A stretch of 64,000 bases of DNA, from NCBI RefSeq assembly GCF_000709085.1, contig NZ_JFBD01000045.1, positions 1-64,000 of the forward strand, in the 5' to 3' direction. Below the pieces are notes generated by a model. It did not search any database. It saw nothing but the letters and a program-made list of their open reading frames with translations, and had not been told where the DNA came from. The stretch comes from Virgibacillus alimentarius. GTDB taxonomy: Bacteria > Bacillota > Bacilli > Bacillales > Amphibacillaceae. Shown here in pieces: positions 1,205 to 16,196 of this stretch. The first letter of the stretch is position 1. Every line of letters starts with the position of its first letter. The translations under genes were made by a program, and so were the position numbers.

Positions 1205-2611
1205 TTAAATGATGAAATGGAGGATAAACGCTGCTGTAACAAAATACATAACGGGATGGATCTGTTTCATTTGTCCGGTACCTAGTTTCAATAACGTATA
1301 AGAGATGAACCCAAATGCAAGACCTTCGGCTATACTAAATGTAAGCGGCATCATAATAATCGTGAGCATAACAGGTATGACAATGGTAAAGTCATCAAAT
1401 GCAATATTTTTAATTTCCGGAAGCATAAATGCCCCAACAAGAATTAAAGCAGGTGCAATAGCTTCAGTTGGAATATAAGAAATCAAAGGAGCGATAAACA
1501 ACGTACATCCAAATAACGCTGCTACTACAAGCGCTTTTAAACCGGTTCTTCCACCTTCAGCAATACCAGTCGCATTCTCTGCATAGGCATTTAAAGCTGT
1601 CCCACCCAAAGAAGCACTTAAAAGAGTCCCGGCGGCATCGGCCTGCAACGCACGATCAATCCCATCAATTTTTCCGTCCTTACGAACAAGTTTTGCTTTT
1701 TTAGCAAATCCAATGAGTGTTCCTGTATTATCAAATAATTCAACAAGCGTAAAAGAAAGAATAATGGAAACAATGCCAAATCCAACAGCTGCTCCTAAAT
1801 CCATTGCTAAGAAGGTTTCACTGAAACTAGGAATATTTAATGAAAATACTTCTCCAATACTGCTTGGAGAATCTGTATAACCTACAATCATCGAAACGGC
1901 AGACGTCAGGAGTATGGCAAGTAACAAACCTCCTTTTACATTTCTGGCAGTTAATATCCCTGCTATAATAAGGCCAAATAATGAAAGTAAAGGTCCCGTA
2001 GCTGTTATATCCCCTATTGCTACGATATTCGATTCATCAGAAATAACTAATCCAGCATTCTGAAGACCGAGAAAGGTAATAAACAAACCAATTCCTACCG
2101 TTATCGCGGATTTTAAAGAATCTGGAATGCCGTAGATAATCATTGTTCGTATCCCTGTAATTGTAAGGATAAGAAAGACAATCCCCGATATAAATACAGC
2201 ACCTAACCCTGCCTGCCAAGTCAATCCCTCACCAATTACAACGGTATATGTAAAGAATGCGACCAGTCCGATCCCCGGTGCCACAGCAGCAGGGAAATTG
2301 GACCACAAGGCAAATACAATGGTAGCAAATAAAGCAACAAAAATGGTTGCTGCAAGTGTAGCATCTCGTGGCATCCCTGCGTCCGCAAGCATCATTGGAA
2401 TGACAAAGATAATATAACTCATCGAAACAAAGGTAGTTATACCTGCGAGAATTTCAGTTTTCACATCTGTTGCCCGCTCGGTTAGTTTAAAAAACTGATC
2501 CAAGCCTGATTGTTGTTTATTTTTACCGATTTTCACTTCAATTTCTGGCTGCCTCTTTTCTTCAGGGTGTCTGTCATATTTTATTTCTTGTTCCTGTCCT
2601 AGATTTGACAT
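1205..2611 (-). CDS. NCS2/AzgA-type purine permease (468 aa)
   Basis: Second, complete copy of the purine permease, about 12-14 membrane segments. It has the same ELFDN-TLIGFAKKAKLV block as the copy at 1-862 and the AzgA N-terminal motif, but the usual VNP is VIP here (SYIIFVIPMMLADAG). The start at 2611 is chosen because GGGAGG lies 9 bases upstream; a longer frame to 2659 has no ribosome site. The N-terminus is a charged, hydrophilic 45-residue tail. It is expressed from a promoter near 3050 through a roughly 420-base leader with a terminator. Likely takes up xanthine, guanine or hypoxanthine for the adjacent oxidation operon. Confidence 0.88.
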   Translation of the reverse strand: MSNLGQEQEIKYDRHPEEKRQPEIEVKIGKNKQQSGLDQFFKLTERATDVKTEILAGITTFVSMSYIIFVIPMMLADAGMPRDATLAATIFVALFATIVFALWSNFPAAVAPGIGLVAFFTYTVVIGEGLTWQAGLGAVFISGIVFLILTITGIRTMIIYGIPDSLKSAITVGIGLFITFLGLQNAGLVISDESNIVAIGDITATGPLLSLFGLIIAGILTARNVKGGLLLAILLTSAVSMIVGYTDSPSSIGEVFSLNIPSFSETFLAMDLGAAVGFGIVSIILSFTLVELFDNTGTLIGFAKKAKLVRKDGKIDGIDRALQADAAGTLLSASLGGTALNAYAENATGIAEGGRTGLKALVVAALFGCTLFIAPLISYIPTEAIAPALILVGAFMLPEIKNIAFDDFTIVIPVMLTIIMMPLTFSIAEGLAFGFISYTLLKLGTGQMKQIHPVMYFVTAAFILHFII

Positions 2612-2881
2612 ACTATTTTCCCTCCCAAAATCTTTGGCTACAGTAGATGGACGAAACATGGATTGGTGAAAATACGATTTATTCCTTTATCACTTCCTTT
2701 ATCATCTCAGCGATAACGCTAGTTAAAATATATTCTCCATTTTTCATTTCCAGATGAATACCTTGTTAAAAACGGACGCATAATAAAGTGACTATTCTGA
2801 AAATTACATGTAAGCACATACATCACCTGCGAAATGTAAACGACATATCGTCTATTACTTTCTTTGGTTGAATCAAGAAAG

Positions 2882-3130: not shown

Positions 3131-3448
3131 TTATTGTATCGGTTCAATGAACACATCCATAATTCCGCCGCAAATTCCACCATCTTCATAAAATAAACCT
3201 TGGGTTAAGTCCACTTGATGCTGCATGGGAATACCTCTCTCTATGACCGCAAAAGACTTTTCAATTACTTCTCCCTCACCACAGCCTCCACCGATGGTAC
3301 CGTCGATGTCTCCATCTGAATAAATGATCATTTTTGCACCGGTTTCCCTCGGTATGGACCCTTTCGTTCTAATAATGGTGGCAACTGCGGCGCGCTTACT
3401 TTCTTTGCGAGCAGACATCACCTTCTCATAAAAATCAATCTTATTCAT
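3131..3448 (-). CDS. Stand-alone XdhC/CoxI N-domain protein (105 aa)
   Basis: Accessory protein of molybdenum hydroxylases. The whole protein corresponds to the XdhC_CoxI domain alone, with the typical TKGSIPRETGAKMIIY and GTIGGGCGEGEV segments and the C-terminal GGICGG. Classical XdhC proteins carry this domain plus a Rossmann-like XdhC_C domain; here the latter is in the preceding gene, and this gene overlaps it by 4 bases. XdhC family proteins bind molybdenum cofactor, protect it during sulfuration and insert it in the dehydrogenase. Last gene of the operon. Confidence 0.85.
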   Translation of the reverse strand: MNKIDFYEKVMSARKESKRAAVATIIRTKGSIPRETGAKMIIYSDGDIDGTIGGGCGEGEVIEKSFAVIERGIPMQHQVDLTQGLFYEDGGICGGIMDVFIEPIQ

Positions 3449-4278
3449 TTTCTCGATCTCTCCCGAAAAATTAATTTTGAATAACTCGATATTTTTTCTT
3501 TTAAAGAACTCCCACTGGCCTGATTTTTCACCTTTAAAATTTCTGCTAAAATACTAATTGCAATTTCTACAGGGGTCTGTGCACCAACATCAAGACCTAC
3601 AGGGGAATAAATATTAATAAAGTTATGGTCTGTAAATTCATCTTTCAGTTGTTCAAACACACCAGAAATTCTTCTTCTGCTGCCTATCATTCCGATATAT
3701 ACGGTACGTTCTTCTACATCCAGCATTTCTTCACGTTTTAATAACTCTTGTAAACTGACAACATCAAATTTATGCCCCCGTGTTAATAATAGTATATAAG
3801 TTTCTGATGTAATGGGAACATTTCTGAAAAAATCAATATACGATGAACAGACAACTTCATCTGCATATGGAAACTTTTTAGTATTCGCAAATTCCTTGCG
3901 GTCATCAATAACCGTTACATAAAAACCGAGCATTTTGCCTACTTCGGCGACAGGTTCTGATACATGCCCAGCTCCTGCCACAATTAAATGTGGAGGAACT
4001 GGAAAAATTTCTACGTAACATTCTATATGTGTGTTGCGATAAACAACATCAATTGTTTTTGTTTTCTTTTGTTCTAATAATGGCAGACAATTCTCTATTA
4101 TTTTCTGCTGGAAGTCTTGCGGCATTTTACTTTCATCGTATAAAGTTCCATCCTTATAAAGAATAATTTTTGCGCCGATGAAAGATATTTCTGGAAGATT
4201 CGTAATTGTAATGAGAACGGCATCGTTATGCTCATTAACTGCTTTTGTAAGCCTTTTAAATAACTCCTCGCTCATCAT
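3445..4278 (-). CDS. pucA: XdhC family molybdenum cofactor insertion factor
   Basis: 277 aa. Residues ~1-90 resemble a degenerate XdhC_CoxI domain lacking the GGGC motif; residues ~95-260 are the XdhC C-terminal Rossmann domain, with LIVAGAGHVSEPVAEVGKML, ILLLTRGHKFD and the signature IGMIGSRRR. In Bacillus the equivalent PucA is needed to mature xanthine dehydrogenase. The frame extends to a GTG at 4287 overlapping the previous stop, but GAGGTGA sits 5 bases before ATG 4278, so I start there (ATG 4275 is also possible). Confidence 0.88.
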   Translation of the reverse strand: MMSEELFKRLTKAVNEHNDAVLITITNLPEISFIGAKIILYKDGTLYDESKMPQDFQQKIIENCLPLLEQKKTKTIDVVYRNTHIECYVEIFPVPPHLIVAGAGHVSEPVAEVGKMLGFYVTVIDDRKEFANTKKFPYADEVVCSSYIDFFRNVPITSETYILLLTRGHKFDVVSLQELLKREEMLDVEERTVYIGMIGSRRRISGVFEQLKDEFTDHNFINIYSPVGLDVGAQTPVEIAISILAEILKVKNQASGSSLKEKISSYSKLIFRERSRK

Positions 4279-4283
4279 TGGGA

Positions 4284-6620
4284 TCACCTCGAAATAAGCG
4301 ATGGCTTTTTCGTTGCCTGCATAGCATGATAAATACGTTCTGGAGTGGCTGGCAGACGGTTAATTCGTGCTCCTGTCGCGTCATGAATTGCTGCCATGAT
4401 TGCTGGAATGATTGGTATCATGACAACCTCAGCAATTCCCTTTGCCCCAAACGGTCCGGTTTCCTCATTAGACTCTACTGGTATTGTTACAATCTCAGGC
4501 GTTTCCCGAATAGTCGGTATAATGTAATCTGTAAAATTTTTCGTTTTATGCATCCCATCTTCGATCAGCACATCTTCATACAAGGTGTAGCCAATTCCCA
4601 TAACGGCACCACCCTCCGATTGTCCTTCAAGACCTTGTGGATTTAAGACTTTTCCCGCATCTGGAATCGCTACGACTTTCAGGACATCTGTTTGTCCTGT
4701 GAGTGTATCCACTTCTACCATTACAACGTGTGTCATATAGCCGTATAAGTGATGGGGAGCACCGCCAGAGTTTCGAAGTTCTTCTTTTTCTTTTGGCAAA
4801 TAAAAGTGACCTTCTACTCGTGTTGATTTACGTTTATCTAATAAAATTTCACAAATTTGCTTATATGTTACAAACTGGCTTTCATCCCCTGCGACCATTA
4901 ATTTATTGTTGGCCAGCTCTATTTCAGATTTGGGTACATCTAAGATTTCTGCGGCAGTTTCTGAAAGCAAATTAATCATGTTGGGCGCGGCTGTTGCGAT
5001 TGCTCGACCACCAGTGTATGTTGACCTAGAAGCGGAAATAGTGCCGCTATCGAGTGTTTTTGTTGTATCACCCTGGACAACGATGATATGATCAAGACTG
5101 CATTTGAGACACTCCGCAGCAACTTGTGCGTAAACCGTTCCATTTCCAGTACCAATTTCTTCAATGGCTACTCCGACTTTAAATCGACCATCCTCAAGCA
5201 GTTCCATGGTAGCCGCTCCATAATCAGGGCTGCCAAGACCCATCCCCACACCATGAAACGAAGTAGCTATTGCAACACCTCTCTTCTTCCATGGTTCACT
5301 AACTTGGGATTTATATAAATCTCTATTTTTCCACAGGTCACATTGTTCAGCTTTCTCTAATGTTTCGATTGTACCAACGCTCGATTTGACAACATGACCT
5401 AAGCTTGAAACATCGCCCTGGCGGTATGCATTTTTCTTTCTAATCTCAACGGGATCAAGACCTGTTTTTTCTGCCAGCATATCGATATGTGTTTCAATCC
5501 CTGTGCAAACTTGATTTACTCCAAAACCACGAAAAGCACCTGCAATTCCATTATTTGTATAGACGCAAAAACCTTCCATATCAACATTCGGAATTTTATA
5601 AGGTCCTGATGCGTGTTCGATAGCCAGTGCAGTTACTGCACCTCCAAGTGAAGCATATGCACCTGTATCTGCAATAGCACATACTTTATTTGCTACTAGG
5701 CTTCCATCCTTGGTTGCACCTGTTTTAACAGTAACTTTAAAAGGATGGCGTTTGATTCCGGCAAGTACAGATTCTTCACGACTTAAGTGAATTTTGACTG
5801 GTCTGCCGCTAATGTTATGTGCTAATAATGCAAGGTGAATCTGTACCGTAATCTCATCTTTTCCTCCAAAGCCACCACCATTTGGACTGGAGTAAACATG
5901 AATTCTTTCCGGATTTAATGCAAGCGCCCGCGCGATTTGCAATTTGTCTCTGTGGCCATATTGTGCAGGGCATTGTATCATGAGTGAACCATCAGGCTTA
6001 AGCATTCCCCAGCCGCCCTCTGTTTCAATAAAAGCATGCATTTGTCTTGGTGAATAAAAAGTGTTCTCGAATATATAGTCTGCCTCTTCAAAACCTTTAT
6101 CAATATCTCCATTACGAATAGACACATGGCTGTGGATATTTCCATCTGGATGGAGCTTGGGAGCGCCTTGAACCATTGCCTTTTCAGCGTCAGTAACAGG
6201 GTCAAGCACTTCATAGTCCACCTCAATTAATTCAAGAGCCGATTCGGCTGCTTCAAGTGTTTCTGCCCCTACAAGAGCCACAGCGTCTCCTGTACACCGA
6301 ACAACATTTTCGCATAAAACAGGCTGATCTGGTGTTACAATTCCAAAACCATTAAAACCTGGGATATCCTTATGTGTAAGCACACAAACCACATCCGGAT
6401 GAGCTTCCGCCTTTGTTGTATCAATTGATTTGATCTTAGCAAAGGGATACTTTGCGCGCAATACTTTTCCCCACACCATATTTGGATAGTTATAATCCGT
6501 TTTATATTTCTGTTCCCCTGTCACTTTTTCAGATCCATCGATTCTTTTTACAGGTTTACCGACCCATTGTAAATTTTGCTTATCTTTGTATGCTTGTGTT
6601 TCTTCCACTTGTTTACTCAT
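4284..6620 (-). CDS. pucD: Xanthine dehydrogenase molybdopterin-binding subunit
   Basis: 778 aa large subunit of a xanthine dehydrogenase/aldehyde oxidase-type molybdenum hydroxylase. Visible signatures are the N-terminal RIDGSEKVTGEQKY segment, the cofactor-binding GGGFGGKDE and GAFRGFGVNQ loops, and the C-terminal GPFGAKGIAE, whose glutamate is the expected catalytic base. It oxidises hypoxanthine/xanthine to urate, with electrons passing through the iron-sulfur and FAD subunits encoded just upstream. The start overlaps the FAD subunit stop by 4 bases (ATGA). Length is normal for the family. Exact purine specificity is inferred from operon content and the riboswitch. Confidence 0.93.
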   Translation of the reverse strand: MSKQVEETQAYKDKQNLQWVGKPVKRIDGSEKVTGEQKYKTDYNYPNMVWGKVLRAKYPFAKIKSIDTTKAEAHPDVVCVLTHKDIPGFNGFGIVTPDQPVLCENVVRCTGDAVALVGAETLEAAESALELIEVDYEVLDPVTDAEKAMVQGAPKLHPDGNIHSHVSIRNGDIDKGFEEADYIFENTFYSPRQMHAFIETEGGWGMLKPDGSLMIQCPAQYGHRDKLQIARALALNPERIHVYSSPNGGGFGGKDEITVQIHLALLAHNISGRPVKIHLSREESVLAGIKRHPFKVTVKTGATKDGSLVANKVCAIADTGAYASLGGAVTALAIEHASGPYKIPNVDMEGFCVYTNNGIAGAFRGFGVNQVCTGIETHIDMLAEKTGLDPVEIRKKNAYRQGDVSSLGHVVKSSVGTIETLEKAEQCDLWKNRDLYKSQVSEPWKKRGVAIATSFHGVGMGLGSPDYGAATMELLEDGRFKVGVAIEEIGTGNGTVYAQVAAECLKCSLDHIIVVQGDTTKTLDSGTISASRSTYTGGRAIATAAPNMINLLSETAAEILDVPKSEIELANNKLMVAGDESQFVTYKQICEILLDKRKSTRVEGHFYLPKEKEELRNSGGAPHHLYGYMTHVVMVEVDTLTGQTDVLKVVAIPDAGKVLNPQGLEGQSEGGAVMGIGYTLYEDVLIEDGMHKTKNFTDYIIPTIRETPEIVTIPVESNEETGPFGAKGIAEVVMIPIIPAIMAAIHDATGARINRLPATPERIYHAMQATKKPSLISR

Positions 6621-7495
6621 CTTTCATCCCACCTTTTCATTAAACGGTATAACCCGCGCTCTAACAATGCACTTGCCATGCTCCGTCTATATTTGGCACT
6701 TGCTCTAACATCTGAAATGGGCATCACTTCTTTCCAGGCAGCTCCTGCTATATCCTGAATTGCTTCATCATGGAGCGGATTTATGGTAAGCATCCTTTCA
6801 CATTTTTCAGATCGAACGATTGTTGGCGCGACTGAACCAAATGCGATTTTTCCGCCGAGACATTCTCTGGACTTTTCACCCATTTTTAATGAAATGGCGA
6901 CATTAACAATAGAAATGGATTGCGCCTTACGCGGTCCTAGCTTTTCAAAAATACCAATTTCATTCTCCGTTTGCGGGCGTATGATAATATTTGTAATCAT
7001 TTCCTCTTGTGCTTGCACGGTTCTGCCCGGTCCCACAAAAAATTCATTGATAGGTACAATTCGTTTTTCCATCAATGAGGTTAGTTCAATTTGCGCATCG
7101 AGGACGAAAAGAGTTGGTATGGTATCCCCTGCCGGTGAAGCAGTGGCAATATTTCCCCCAATGGTTCCCATATTTTGCAGTTGTACGGCACCAACTTCTT
7201 TTGAGGCGGCTGTTAATACATCTGCTTTTTTTTGAAGTAATCCTGAATGGACAATATCTGTATGTGTCGTGAGTGGCCCAATGTGGATTCCATTCTCCTC
7301 TTCCTTAATATAACGAAGTGAATCCAGTTGTTTGATATTAATCCACGTATCTGGTAGCCAAGCACCATCTTTCATACGAACAACTGCATCTGTTCCACCT
7401 GCAATAAAACGCGATGTTTTATCCTTTTCGCCAAGATGGTATAGGCATTCTTCAACCGTTTGTGGTGAAATCATTTCTATTTCTGAAACTTTCAT
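6617..7495 (-). CDS. pucC: Xanthine dehydrogenase FAD-binding subunit
   Basis: 292 aa, CoxM/XdhB-like FAD protein. FAD-binding motifs RFIAGGTDAVVRMKDG (about residues 29-44) and TIGGNIATASPAGD (about 110-125) are intact, followed by the CO dehydrogenase flavoprotein C-terminal domain. It passes electrons from the 2Fe-2S subunit to NAD+ or another acceptor. It overlaps both neighbours by 4 bases, so the four core genes are translationally coupled. Confidence 0.92.
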   Translation of the reverse strand: MKVSEIEMISPQTVEECLYHLGEKDKTSRFIAGGTDAVVRMKDGAWLPDTWINIKQLDSLRYIKEEENGIHIGPLTTHTDIVHSGLLQKKADVLTAASKEVGAVQLQNMGTIGGNIATASPAGDTIPTLFVLDAQIELTSLMEKRIVPINEFFVGPGRTVQAQEEMITNIIIRPQTENEIGIFEKLGPRKAQSISIVNVAISLKMGEKSRECLGGKIAFGSVAPTIVRSEKCERMLTINPLHDEAIQDIAGAAWKEVMPISDVRASAKYRRSMASALLERGLYRLMKRWDER

Positions 7496-8094
7496 GGTAA
7501 GCCCCCTTCAGAAAAATTTTTAAGATAATCCTCTGGTTTGTTAAAGTTAAACAGAATGGATGGATCCTGAACTTCTAAATACATGATACGCTCAGCATAA
7601 TCACTGACAATTTGTCTTAATCCTTTTGTATTTTCGCGAACAGCTAATAAGTCATCTTTCAAATTGCCGTGGAATAAAATTGGATGTCCCCGTTTATTTT
7701 CGTAAACAGGTATGATCGCTGCAGATTGAATTAATTTATCTGACATCTTCGTTAAGGTATGACTTGGCACGGGCTGGTCTACGTTACATATGAAAATACC
7801 TTTCGCATTATCAGAAACATTTGATGCTCCAATTCGAATGGATGAGCTCTTTCCTTGCTTGTAATGATCATTTCTTACAATTTTCAAATGATCATACTGC
7901 GTCATCACTGAATGAAGCTGGTCTGCTTGGTAGCCAAGAACAACAACAATTTCACGTACTCTCGCCTGGTGTATTTGTTCGATTTGGTATTCGATCAGTG
8001 TTTTTCCTTGCCACGGAAGTAAAGCCTTTAATTTTCCCATTCGGCTGGAGAAACCTGCCGCAAGCAATATTGCCGACATTCCTTTTTTATTCAA
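7492..8094 (-). CDS. pucB: MocA-type molybdenum cofactor cytidylyltransferase
   Basis: About 200 aa, MobA-like NTP transferase. The N-terminal nucleotide-binding loop LLAAGFSSRMGKLKALLPW and the metal site CNVDQP are present. MocA enzymes convert Mo-molybdopterin to the cytosine dinucleotide form used by xanthine dehydrogenases of this family. I choose TTG 8094, whose TTGA overlaps the stop of the upstream gene and has GGAAGAG 8 bases before it; ATG 8079 is the alternative. A longer frame to 8178 lies wholly within the neighbouring gene and has no support. Confidence 0.86.
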   Translation of the reverse strand: MNKKGMSAILLAAGFSSRMGKLKALLPWQGKTLIEYQIEQIHQARVREIVVVLGYQADQLHSVMTQYDHLKIVRNDHYKQGKSSSIRIGASNVSDNAKGIFICNVDQPVPSHTLTKMSDKLIQSAAIIPVYENKRGHPILFHGNLKDDLLAVRENTKGLRQIVSDYAERIMYLEVQDPSILFNFNKPEDYLKNFSEGGLP

Positions 8095-8579
8095 TTCGTC
8101 GTCTCTTCCATCGTAAGTTGTTTCCTTGCGGCTGTTTGTACTGCTTTCATTATTTTGGTGTATCCGGTGCATCGACAAAGGTTGCCCCCAAGTGCTGTTT
8201 TAACTTCATCATCAGTAGGAACATGGTTTATACCGTCTAAGAATGACCTGGAAGATACAATCAATCCAGGTGTACAATACCCACACTGTGTTGCACCTTC
8301 ATCAACAAATGCTTGCTGTACAACATCCATATTCGACGTTAAACCTATCCCCTCAACAGTGATAACGCTTACATCGTGTATTTGACCTATTAAAACAAGA
8401 CAAGAACAAACAGAAACTCCATCCAGTAACACAGTACAAGATCCACACTCCCCCTTGCCGCAACATTCTTTGCTGCCTGTTAAATCAAATTCATCTCTAA
8501 GTACATCCAATAATGTTTTTGTTGGTGCACAATTCACAGAGACATTTTTTCCATTAACTTTAAAATGAATGTCTTTCAA
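8091..8579 (-). CDS. pucE: Xanthine dehydrogenase 2Fe-2S subunit
   Basis: 162 aa small subunit with two [2Fe-2S] clusters: a plant ferredoxin-like N-terminal motif CCGKGECGSC followed by a cysteine near residue 60, and an alpha-helical C-terminal domain with CGYCTPG and CRCTGY. It carries electrons from the molybdenum centre to FAD. The start is TTG 8579, 7 bases after GGAGG; an ATG at 8594 overlaps that ribosome site. First gene of the operon, about 120 bases after a riboswitch terminator. Confidence 0.92.
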   Translation of the reverse strand: MKDIHFKVNGKNVSVNCAPTKTLLDVLRDEFDLTGSKECCGKGECGSCTVLLDGVSVCSCLVLIGQIHDVSVITVEGIGLTSNMDVVQQAFVDEGATQCGYCTPGLIVSSRSFLDGINHVPTDDEVKTALGGNLCRCTGYTKIMKAVQTAARKQLTMEETTN

Positions 8580-8698
8580 ACGATCAACCTCCATGTATTT
8601 TGTATAGAAGCCATTTTCAATAGTTTTGGATAATGATTTGTTTGAGGATTACAGGGAAGATTCATAGAACACAGAAGTACGTAAAAAAAGGTGCCATT

Positions 8699-8749
8699 AA
8701 AAAGCTACGAAAAGGTGCCTCACACAAAATGAAGGCGCCTTTTCGTAGC
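8699..8749 (-). terminator. Riboswitch-controlled intrinsic terminator
   Basis: On the minus strand the 5' arm AGCTACGAAAAGGCGCC (8749-8733) pairs with the 3' arm ending TTTTCGTAGCT (8712-8702), one C/A mismatch in about 18 bp, 12-base loop, then a T run. A second GGCACCTTTTTTT follows at 8695-8683 and could pair with the inner part of the same arm as a back-up. No gene lies upstream on this strand, so the hairpin can only act on the xdh leader. Its 5' arm includes the 3' strand of aptamer helix P1 (8746-8739). Confidence 0.88.
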
Positions 8750-8806
8750 TAAGGTTTACGGTTCCCTGTAGAAACCCCCAAACGAATATTGAGGTTATAC
8801 GAAAAA
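8739..8806 (-). promoter_or_regulatory. Variant purine riboswitch aptamer (predicted ON switch) for xdh operon
   Basis: Minus strand, purine-riboswitch fold. P1: TTTTCGTA (8804-8797) with TACGAAAA (8746-8739), 8 bp. J1/2 begins TAA as in the family. P2: CCTCAA (8793-8788) with TTGGGG (8780-8775), 7-base L2. J2/3 is the canonical GTTTCTAC (8774-8767). L3 contains canonical CCGTAAA (8760-8754). The base before the closing TACG is C (8747), the position that selects guanine-like ligands over adenine. P3 is short and J3/1 reads AGC, not GAC. P1 formation excludes the terminator, so ligand should turn transcription on. Confidence 0.88.
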
Positions 8807-8849
8807 CGGCTCTTTACAAATGAAAATGACATATTTTTGTAATTGTTTA

Positions 8850-8878
8850 AATTATATCCGGCGTATACTTTTTTGTCA
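8850..8878 (-). promoter_or_regulatory. Consensus sigma-A promoter of the xdh operon
   Basis: TTGACA (8878-8873), exactly 17 bases, TATAAT (8855-8850): a perfect consensus on the minus strand. Transcription should begin near 8843, about 37 bases before the aptamer P1. A constitutive-looking promoter fits control by the downstream riboswitch rather than by an activator. The stretch 8580-9015 contains only this promoter, the aptamer, the terminator and the short 5' region of ykuE. Confidence 0.9.
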
Positions 8879-9015
8879 ATATACAATTTTCTAAAAATTA
8901 CAGGAATTAGCTTGATTATGTTTACAAAATTCTTTAAGAAATCATTCTCTTTCCTTTTATTTTTCATGCTATAATTGCTTAGTAGCTTTATCTATTAGTA
9001 GAAAGGTTGGCATCA

Positions 9016-15172: not shown

Positions 15173-16196
15173 CTATCCACCTATATAAGACATTTCAATT
15201 TTCTTCCGTTTCTTATGTTTTCCTTCTGACCGTTCGTCCGAATAACGATCTTTTCTTTTTCCCCATAAAGATATCAATTCTGTTTCCAATTCTTCATCTG
15301 TTAAGCCTTTTCTCAGTTTTTCTTTTATGTCAAATCCATCTGAAGCAAAAAGGCATGTATAGAATTTCCCGTCGGCGGATAATCGCATGCGTGTGCACGT
15401 TCCGCAGAATGAATCTGTCACAGATGATATGACACCTATTTCTCCTGTTCCGTCCATATAACGGAACCTAGAAGCAACTTCACCATAATAATGCTCTTGG
15501 GCAGATTCAAGAGGCATTTCTTTATGAATGGTATCAATAATTTGCTTTTTAGAAACAACATTGTTTAAGTCCCAGCCATTATAATTCCCAACATCCATAA
15601 ATTCAATGAATCGTAAAATGACATCCGTTCCTTTGAAATGGCGTGCCATTGGCAATATTTGGCTTTCATTCATACCTTTTTTCACAACCATATTTATTTT
15701 CACTTGTAAGCCTGCATCCAGAGCAGCTTCAATTCCTTTAAGTACTGGTAATGCTACGACACCTTTTCCGTTAATCTGTTTAAAAACGGCATCTTCAATT
15801 GCATCCAGACTAACATTCACACGTTTTAATCCTGCTCTCCTGAGTTTTTTTTGCCTTTTTTGGTAAAAAAACAGCATTTGTGGTTAATGCAATATCATCA
15901 ATACCAGGTATGTTTACTAATCTTTGGATTAATTGATCCAAATCTTTTCGCATCAATGGTTCCCCGCCTGTGATACGAATCTTATTAACACCAAGCTCAG
16001 AAAACTTTTCTGCCAATCGGACAATTTCATCAAAATGAAGTAATTCGCTTTCAGGTAGAAAGGGGTAGTCGTCGCCGAAAATTTCCTTTGGCATACAATA
16101 CGTGCAGCGAAAATTACATTGATCAATAACTGAAATCCTCAAATCCTTCAATGGGCGGCCAAAATGATCTTTTATTGGTTCTATATCTTTACTCAT
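15173..16196 (-). pseudogene. moaA: moaA, GTP 3',8-cyclase, interrupted by a frameshift
   Basis: First step of molybdenum cofactor synthesis. The 5' frame (16196-15810) carries the radical-SAM cluster CNFRCTYC and the GGEPLMRKD motif; the 3' frame (to 15173) has the second cluster, CGTCTRMRLSADGKFYTCLF, and ends in the functional GG pair. The frames part at a run of eight A (minus strand, 15852-15845): with seven A the protein would read on as [18 protein letters not shown], the usual MoaA sequence. So one extra A is present. It could be a real mutation, a sequencing error, or be rescued by polymerase slippage on the run. Everything else looks under selection. Confidence 0.9.

Follow-up and report, generated by a model that had tools for sequence, protein, structure and literature searches.

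A candidate transcriptional ON riboswitch of the purine class ahead of the xanthine dehydrogenase operon of Virgibacillus alimentarius

Results

The xdh locus

In the window, by which we mean the whole 64,000-nucleotide stretch of Virgibacillus alimentarius DNA that was analysed, a promoter, a purine-riboswitch aptamer and an intrinsic terminator follow one another on the minus strand from 8879 to 8699 and lead into a xanthine dehydrogenase (xdh) operon (Table 1). Family and domain matches agree with the original prediction in assigning the operon to xanthine dehydrogenase; its genes are arranged behind the leader in the order pucE-mobA-pucC-pucD-xdhC, and a gene for a purine permease follows. 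The two halves of XdhC are encoded by separate genes, as they are in Virgibacillus indicus, and inspection of the V. indicus sequence reveals an identical gene order with the permease at the same position and an adenine deaminase-like gene after it. Translation of pucE likely starts at TTG 8579 (8579-8577), after GGAGG, and not at ATG 8594, given that the GGAGG-spacer-TTG pattern is common to the homologs. The upstream ATG at 8594 overlaps the ribosome-binding site.

Also in the window, moaA (15173-16196, minus strand) is split into two overlapping frames at an A-run near 15830-15860, and no second moaA copy above the family cut-off is present in the genome. The split is either a sequencing error or a pseudogene, and it matters if real, since xanthine dehydrogenase needs the molybdenum cofactor. 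A PucR-domain protein, which could regulate xdh additionally, is encoded elsewhere in the genome.

Table 1. Features of the xdh leader and operon, in order of transcription
Feature	Position	Strand	Evidence or remark
Sigma-A type promoter TTGACA-17-TATAAT	8851..8879	(-)	12/12 hexamer match
Purine (guanine-type) riboswitch aptamer, predicted	8740..8805	(-)	RF00167 44.1 bits; R1 79.6 bits (window itself among the sequences from which R1 was built); covariation in relatives
Intrinsic terminator, hairpin 8750-8703 and U-tract 8702-8699	8699..8750	(-)	-30.0 kcal/mol
pucE/xdhC-type [2Fe-2S] subunit of xanthine dehydrogenase	8091..8594	(-)	TIGR03198, PF01799, PF00111
MobA/MocA-like molybdenum cofactor cytidylyltransferase	7492..8178	(-)	TIGR03310 166 bits (curated cut-off 186), PF12804
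FAD-binding subunit of xanthine dehydrogenase (pucC/xdhB type)	6617..7495	(-)	NF043083 209 bits
Molybdopterin-binding subunit of xanthine dehydrogenase (pucD type)	4284..6620	(-)	TIGR03196 692 bits; PF02738, PF20256
XdhC C-terminal (Rossmann) half, own gene	3445..4287	(-)	PF13478
XdhC/CoxI N-terminal half, own gene	3131..3448	(-)	PF02625
Xanthine/uracil-family (NCS2) purine permease	1205..2659	(-)	PF00860; downstream of operon after gap

Leader architecture

The promoter, which had been described as perfect, is so in both hexamers, with TTGACA at 8879-8874, TATAAT at 8856-8851 and a 17-nt spacer between them, and identical perfect hexamers with 17-nt spacing stand upstream of the leaders of V. 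indicus and Ornithinibacillus halophilus. Folding of the full leader gives z = -5.7 relative to shuffled sequence. A search with the Rfam purine model supports the proposed riboswitch fold, yielding a significant match at 8822-8726 (minus strand) that lies above the gathering score of 37, with E = 5e-4 when the window is compared with all Rfam families and 5.7e-6 in a search of the whole genome. The 8-bp P1, canonical J2-3 and CCGTAAA L3 that had been recognized previously are all present: P1 pairs 8805-8798 with 8747-8740, P2 is formed by 8794-8789 and 8781-8776, J2-3 (8775-8768) reads GUUUCUAC without insertion, and L3 (8761-8755) is CCGUAAA in the RNA. Three further features emerge from the present analysis, namely a short P3 of approximately 4 bp (8767-8764/8754-8751), a J3-1 that is 1 nt longer than the canonical AC (AGC, 8750-8748), and G instead of A at position 73 (G73 being 8749, and C74 being 8748). 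Moreover, one G is deleted from L2 when the aptamer is compared to its relatives, this being one of the two loop Gs with which the CC of L3 pairs. The window aptamer scores weakly with the Rfam model (44 bits, where each of the two canonical copies of this genome reaches 83), and looks to be the weakest among its close relatives on account of the L2 deletion and the short P3. Taken together with the changed J3-1, these features suggest that its affinity could be low.

Competition between P1 and the terminator

The 5' arm of the terminator contains J3-1 and the entire 3' strand of P1, the inclusion of the latter having been claimed originally, and the sequence of the P1 5' strand UUUUCGUA recurs in the 3' arm CCUUUUCGUAGC, so that both vie for one strand. 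None of 20 shuffles of the downstream sequence yields an equally good hairpin on P1. The built-in terminator scan of the window did not report this terminator because its long stem, interrupted by an internal loop, does not match the pattern that the scan employs. In simulated elongation the two folds are mutually exclusive: the probability of P1 is near 1 for transcripts ending at 8735 to 8716 and is 0.6 at 8710, and that of the terminator is 1.0 at 8705 and beyond, where P1 is fully replaced. Forcing P1 in the full leader gives -34.8 versus -49.0 kcal/mol, a penalty of approximately 14 kcal/mol, implying that P1 would win only kinetically and with ligand, which is what a strand-displacement switch would be expected to show.

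The weakness of the aptamer raises the question of whether the element is a decaying remnant, in which case the terminator would be a constitutive attenuator and xdh would be controlled by a PucR-type protein. The loss of the L2 G seen in relatives, the low Rfam score, the PucR-domain protein encoded elsewhere and the split moaA in the assembly are all consistent with this reading. We nevertheless consider it improbable, because the promoter, P1, J2-3, L3, C74 and the exact terminator complement are intact, and because decay would be expected to erase the double complementarity, yet the P1 5' strand is still found repeated in the 3' arm; the moaA split, lying in an A-run, may also be a sequencing error.

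Conservation of both folds in relatives

A search of 84,980 named species, using four aligned PucE proteins, identified 73 loci, and those in which PucE is approximately 58% or more identical to the query were taken as related xdh loci (n = 47). Covariance model R1, built from 15 leaders including that of the window, detects an R1-type aptamer upstream of pucE in 32 of these 47 loci, 14 of which were used in building R1 and match by construction. The leaders occur in genera of the Bacillaceae and Thermoactinomycetaceae, including Siminovitchia, Cytobacillus, Neobacillus, Sporosarcina, Pseudalkalibacillus, Geomicrobium, Natribacillus, Virgibacillus, Ornithinibacillus and Thermoflavimicrobium. 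The R1 element is absent from 15 of the 47 related xdh loci, Fictibacillus, Oceanobacillus luteolus and some Cytobacillus among them, and a search of the plasmid collection gave no match. The aptamer helices covary, with 14 of the 17 pairs changed on both sides and 96.3% of cells paired; 14/17 is reached by none of 500 shuffles, and slid controls give 2-6 pairs.

For comparison of the terminators we used a set of 35 xdh leaders (the xdh set), comprising 33 that lie directly before pucE (window included), one from Evansella vedderi, where a leader of this kind sits before an amidohydrolase gene that is followed by xdh, and one from Thermoflavimicrobium dichotomicum. The last is a second xdh-type ON leader in that species (L073, 2110-2178, minus strand), located upstream of xdh, where it precedes a gene for a purine permease that runs on the opposite strand. 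When only hairpins on P1 are scanned and shuffles serve as controls, a terminator-like hairpin of -12 kcal/mol or better that pairs 5 or more nt of the P1 3' strand is found in 31 of the 35 leaders, a count that is descriptive because the leaders are phylogenetically related; 30 of those 31 hairpins are -19 kcal/mol or better, with 0/20 in the shuffle control. The comparison with related xdh leaders thus extends the P1/terminator overlap well beyond the window. Such hairpins are seen in 9 of 30 canonical guanine riboswitches, a best-scoring sample biased towards the consensus, and several of the nine are long antiterminator-like pairings. The same scan finds copies in which the aptamer is kept but no terminator is seen on P1 (Neobacillus notoginsengisoli L054, L084, L057). 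A scan for the strongest hairpin within 230 nt was dropped, since it picked unrelated downstream hairpins in some leaders.

Evidence for both folds is also provided by 53 leaders in which the P1 5' strand, the P1 3' strand and the terminator can be compared base by base. In that order, position 81 is U-A-U in 39, A-U-A in 3 and G-C-G in 3 of the 53, and position 80 is U-A-U in 47 and C-G-C in 3, so that changes in the P1 3' strand are matched by both its P1 partner and its terminator partner. This three-strand pattern argues for selection on both alternative folds and, with it, for an ON switch.

Contrast with the canonical copies in the same genome

Besides the xdh leader, the genome contains just two purine riboswitches, both of them canonical. 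One precedes purE, and the second lies between guaA and a gene for a permease. In the purE leader, a classical antiterminator (-29.0 kcal/mol) is present and the terminator begins 44 nt after P1, and neither copy has a P1/terminator overlap. This non-overlapping layout, together with the fact that guanine-I riboswitches are commonly OFF, is what might be cited for reading the xdh leader as an ordinary OFF guanine riboswitch in which the overlap is incidental and some other pairing acts as antiterminator. Such an arrangement is very improbable in our view, given that the terminator consumes J3-1 and the whole P1 3' strand, that overlap and covariation alike are conserved from one genus to another, and that the leader folds without an alternative pairing that frees the terminator when ligand is absent. 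It would also be physiologically odd for a substrate pool to repress its own catabolic operon.

Related leaders before other genes

Purine riboswitches of ON type carrying G73 also lie before an amidohydrolase gene in many Bacillaceae (L110, L113, L115, L117-L120, L125, L128, L129). The best NCBIfam model for this amidohydrolase is PRK07228 (5'-deoxyadenosine deaminase; 720-726 bits), and the protein belongs with deaminases of guanine, 8-oxoguanine and 5'-deoxyadenosine. Gene context points to guanine as a possible substrate, in which case this enzyme and xdh would together make up a single guanine-to-urate route controlled by one inducer. Three ON leaders of the xdh-leader shape, with terminators that overlap P1, carry the adenine-type U74 (L112, L127 and L131), and the first two lie directly before adenosine deaminase genes, identified by TIGR01430 for L112 and by sequence inspection for L127. 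Purine riboswitches with C74 are found before NCS2 permease genes (L114, L116, L122-L124, L126, L130, L132); these mostly have an ON-type terminator that overlaps P1 together with P3, and several have a changed base 53 (GUCUCUAG). A G73/C74 purine aptamer precedes an adenine deaminase gene (TIGR01178) in L189 (1440-1580, plus strand), where a guanine-type base 74 is unexpectedly combined with an enzyme that consumes adenine.

Ligand and position 73

The contact bases of the window aptamer are of the guanine type, U22, U47, U51 and C74 corresponding to positions 8797, 8774, 8770 and 8748. U22 and C74 are present in all 35 leaders of the xdh set, and U47 and U51 are likewise retained, L054 being the one exception, with a base changed or lost around U47. 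The occurrence of C74 throughout the xdh set, and of U74 before adenosine deaminases, leads us to expect a 6-oxopurine as ligand; from the four contact bases and the gene context, this would most likely be guanine, or hypoxanthine or xanthine at higher concentration. The two latter compounds would bind approximately tenfold more weakly than guanine if discrimination is guanine-I-like (PMC9295807). The altered J3-1 and position 73 leave room for shifted specificity.

In the window's group, J3-1 is AGC, UGC or GGC and is extended by 1-2 nt. Position 73, which in guanine-I structures is an A engaged, adjacent to the ligand, in a base triple with A52-U22, is G in 14, A in 10, U in 10 and C in 1 of the 35 xdh-set leaders, and G in 10 and A in 1 of 11 associated deaminase leaders. 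It is A in 30/30 canonical relatives and also in 12 ON-type or related leaders that belong with neither xdh nor this deaminase. The difference in G73 (24/46 versus 0/30) gives a value of 3e-7 in Fisher's exact test, which for related sequences excludes only sampling noise. A change at position 73 may tune affinity or specificity and leaves the contacts untouched. U48C was rejected as a mark of the variant, being present in 11 of the 30 canonical relatives. Searching 397 genomes with the G73 pattern CCGTAAA N3-9 GCTACGA yielded matches that were for the most part due to chance, about as many as with the reversed pattern as control; 6 of 30 loci that were fetched are real aptamers, located before genes for xdh, the amidohydrolase-type deaminase (3), a permease and an adenine deaminase.

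The distribution of bases at position 73 and the extended J3-1, together with the published xanthine-II variants, which have a changed J3-1 and xdh/allB associations and sense xanthine, would fit an alternative in which ON action is kept but the J3-1 insertion and the A73G change have shifted the ligand to xanthine, hypoxanthine or another oxidised purine. We regard this as possible, if on the whole unlikely. All known direct contacts are kept, and guanine-II, which combines most xanthine-II variations with U51, binds guanine and rejects xanthine (PMC9295807). Moreover, A73 is found in 10 of the 35 xdh-set leaders with the same genes, so that the change is not needed for the association. Still broader is the idea that G73 leaders with an extended J3-1, found before xdh and deaminase genes in Bacillaceae, constitute a distinct ligand-specificity class on the guanine-riboswitch scaffold, a proposal that we find doubtful and put forward only tentatively. 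Were it true, such a class (for xanthine or hypoxanthine, for example) would have stayed hidden in RF00167 because the published contact bases are unchanged, and the base triple under the ligand, not the contacts, would determine its specificity. The change in G73 and J3-1, linked as it is to catabolic genes, offers a concrete and easily accessible test case for whether specificity or affinity can be retuned from outside the contact positions on which searches for variants have been based.

Discussion

The aptamer, the terminator, their overlap, the conservation of that overlap and the three-strand covariation were all computed here, and the element they define is probably a cis-acting transcriptional ON riboswitch with a purine (guanine-I-like) fold. 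The original reading, in which ligand prevents termination, draws support from the mutually exclusive folds and from the overlap kept in relatives, and none of the computational outcomes that had been named as counting against it was encountered. With respect to the ligand, the kinetics and the actual regulation in the cell, what we infer is as follows. Without ligand, the terminator 3' arm would displace the P1 5' strand from the P1 3' strand, the terminator would form, and RNA polymerase would halt near 8699. A 6-oxopurine bound in the three-way junction would stabilise P1 and block strand invasion, and RNA polymerase would then read through into the operon, so that xanthine dehydrogenase is made when purine bases are in excess.

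If this is correct, a single RNA fold would give opposite outputs in one cell, OFF on synthesis and uptake (purE, guaA/permease) and ON on oxidation (xdh). The xdh operon of B. subtilis is controlled by the protein PucR. An ON switch on xdh would need no protein regulator, and in the lineage of V. alimentarius and its relatives control of xdh by RNA may take the place of PucR or act in addition to it.

The closest mechanistic parallel is the pbuE adenine riboswitch of B. subtilis, an ON transcriptional switch whose terminator uses the P1 3' strand and competes with P1. The element described here resembles it in this P1-versus-terminator mechanism, with both folds conserved, and differs in having C74 and a predicted 6-oxopurine ligand instead of U74 and adenine (the adenine-type U74 is replaced by C at 8748), and in preceding xdh instead of a gene for a purine efflux pump. 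With guanine-I (RF00167, e.g. B. subtilis xpt-pbuX) it shares the three-way junction of three covarying helices (P3 being short in the window), J2-3 GUUUCUAC, L3 CCGUAAA and the contact bases. It departs from the A73-C74 J3-1 of guanine-I, however, having AGC with G at base 73, and also from the common OFF layout; P3 is approximately 4 bp, L2 is shortened, and the genes controlled serve catabolism, not synthesis or uptake.

Among guanine-scaffold variants, xanthine-II from Paenibacillus has U51G, a two-nucleotide J2-3 insertion and a J3-1 insertion, and is associated with genes for allantoinase (allB), dioxygenase and xanthine dehydrogenase (PMC9295807). The scaffold, the predicted ON action and the xdh association are common to both elements, as is a J3-1 insertion, of one base here and taken for xanthine-II from the published description; U51 (8770) and the uninterrupted GUUUCUAC, however, stand against U51G and the J2-3 insertion. 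Guanine-II, also from Paenibacillus, keeps U51, has one extra J2-3 base and most xanthine-II variations, binds guanine, rejects xanthine, and mostly controls phosphoribosyltransferase genes (PMC9295807). It is similar to the xdh leader in U51 and in its predicted ON action, but differs in the one-nucleotide J2-3 insertion, absent here, and in the genes controlled. The 8-oxoguanine riboswitch is an ON switch with changed contact bases, located before a deaminase gene, and is not known outside Paenibacillaceae or before genes other than those for 8-oxoguanine deaminase. It has the guanine scaffold in common with the xdh leader, and is mentioned among the variants in PMC9295807. The xanthine-I (NMT1) riboswitch (PMC7373994) has associations with purine-oxidation genes in common with the element, although its fold is entirely different.

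An ON guanine-type switch near purine-catabolic genes therefore has precedent, in that xanthine-II, guanine-II and 2'-dG-III are predicted to be ON (PMC9295807). In the open-access literature that was searched, no purine riboswitch located ahead of xdh in Bacillaceae came to light, the only link between a purine riboswitch and xanthine dehydrogenase being that made in PMC9295807, and the altered binding junction of these leaders is not described in the literature so searched. On the features compared, the element combines a predicted pbuE-like action with the RF00167 scaffold and guanine-I contacts, and falls outside guanine-I in its J3-1 and outside both xanthine-II and guanine-II.
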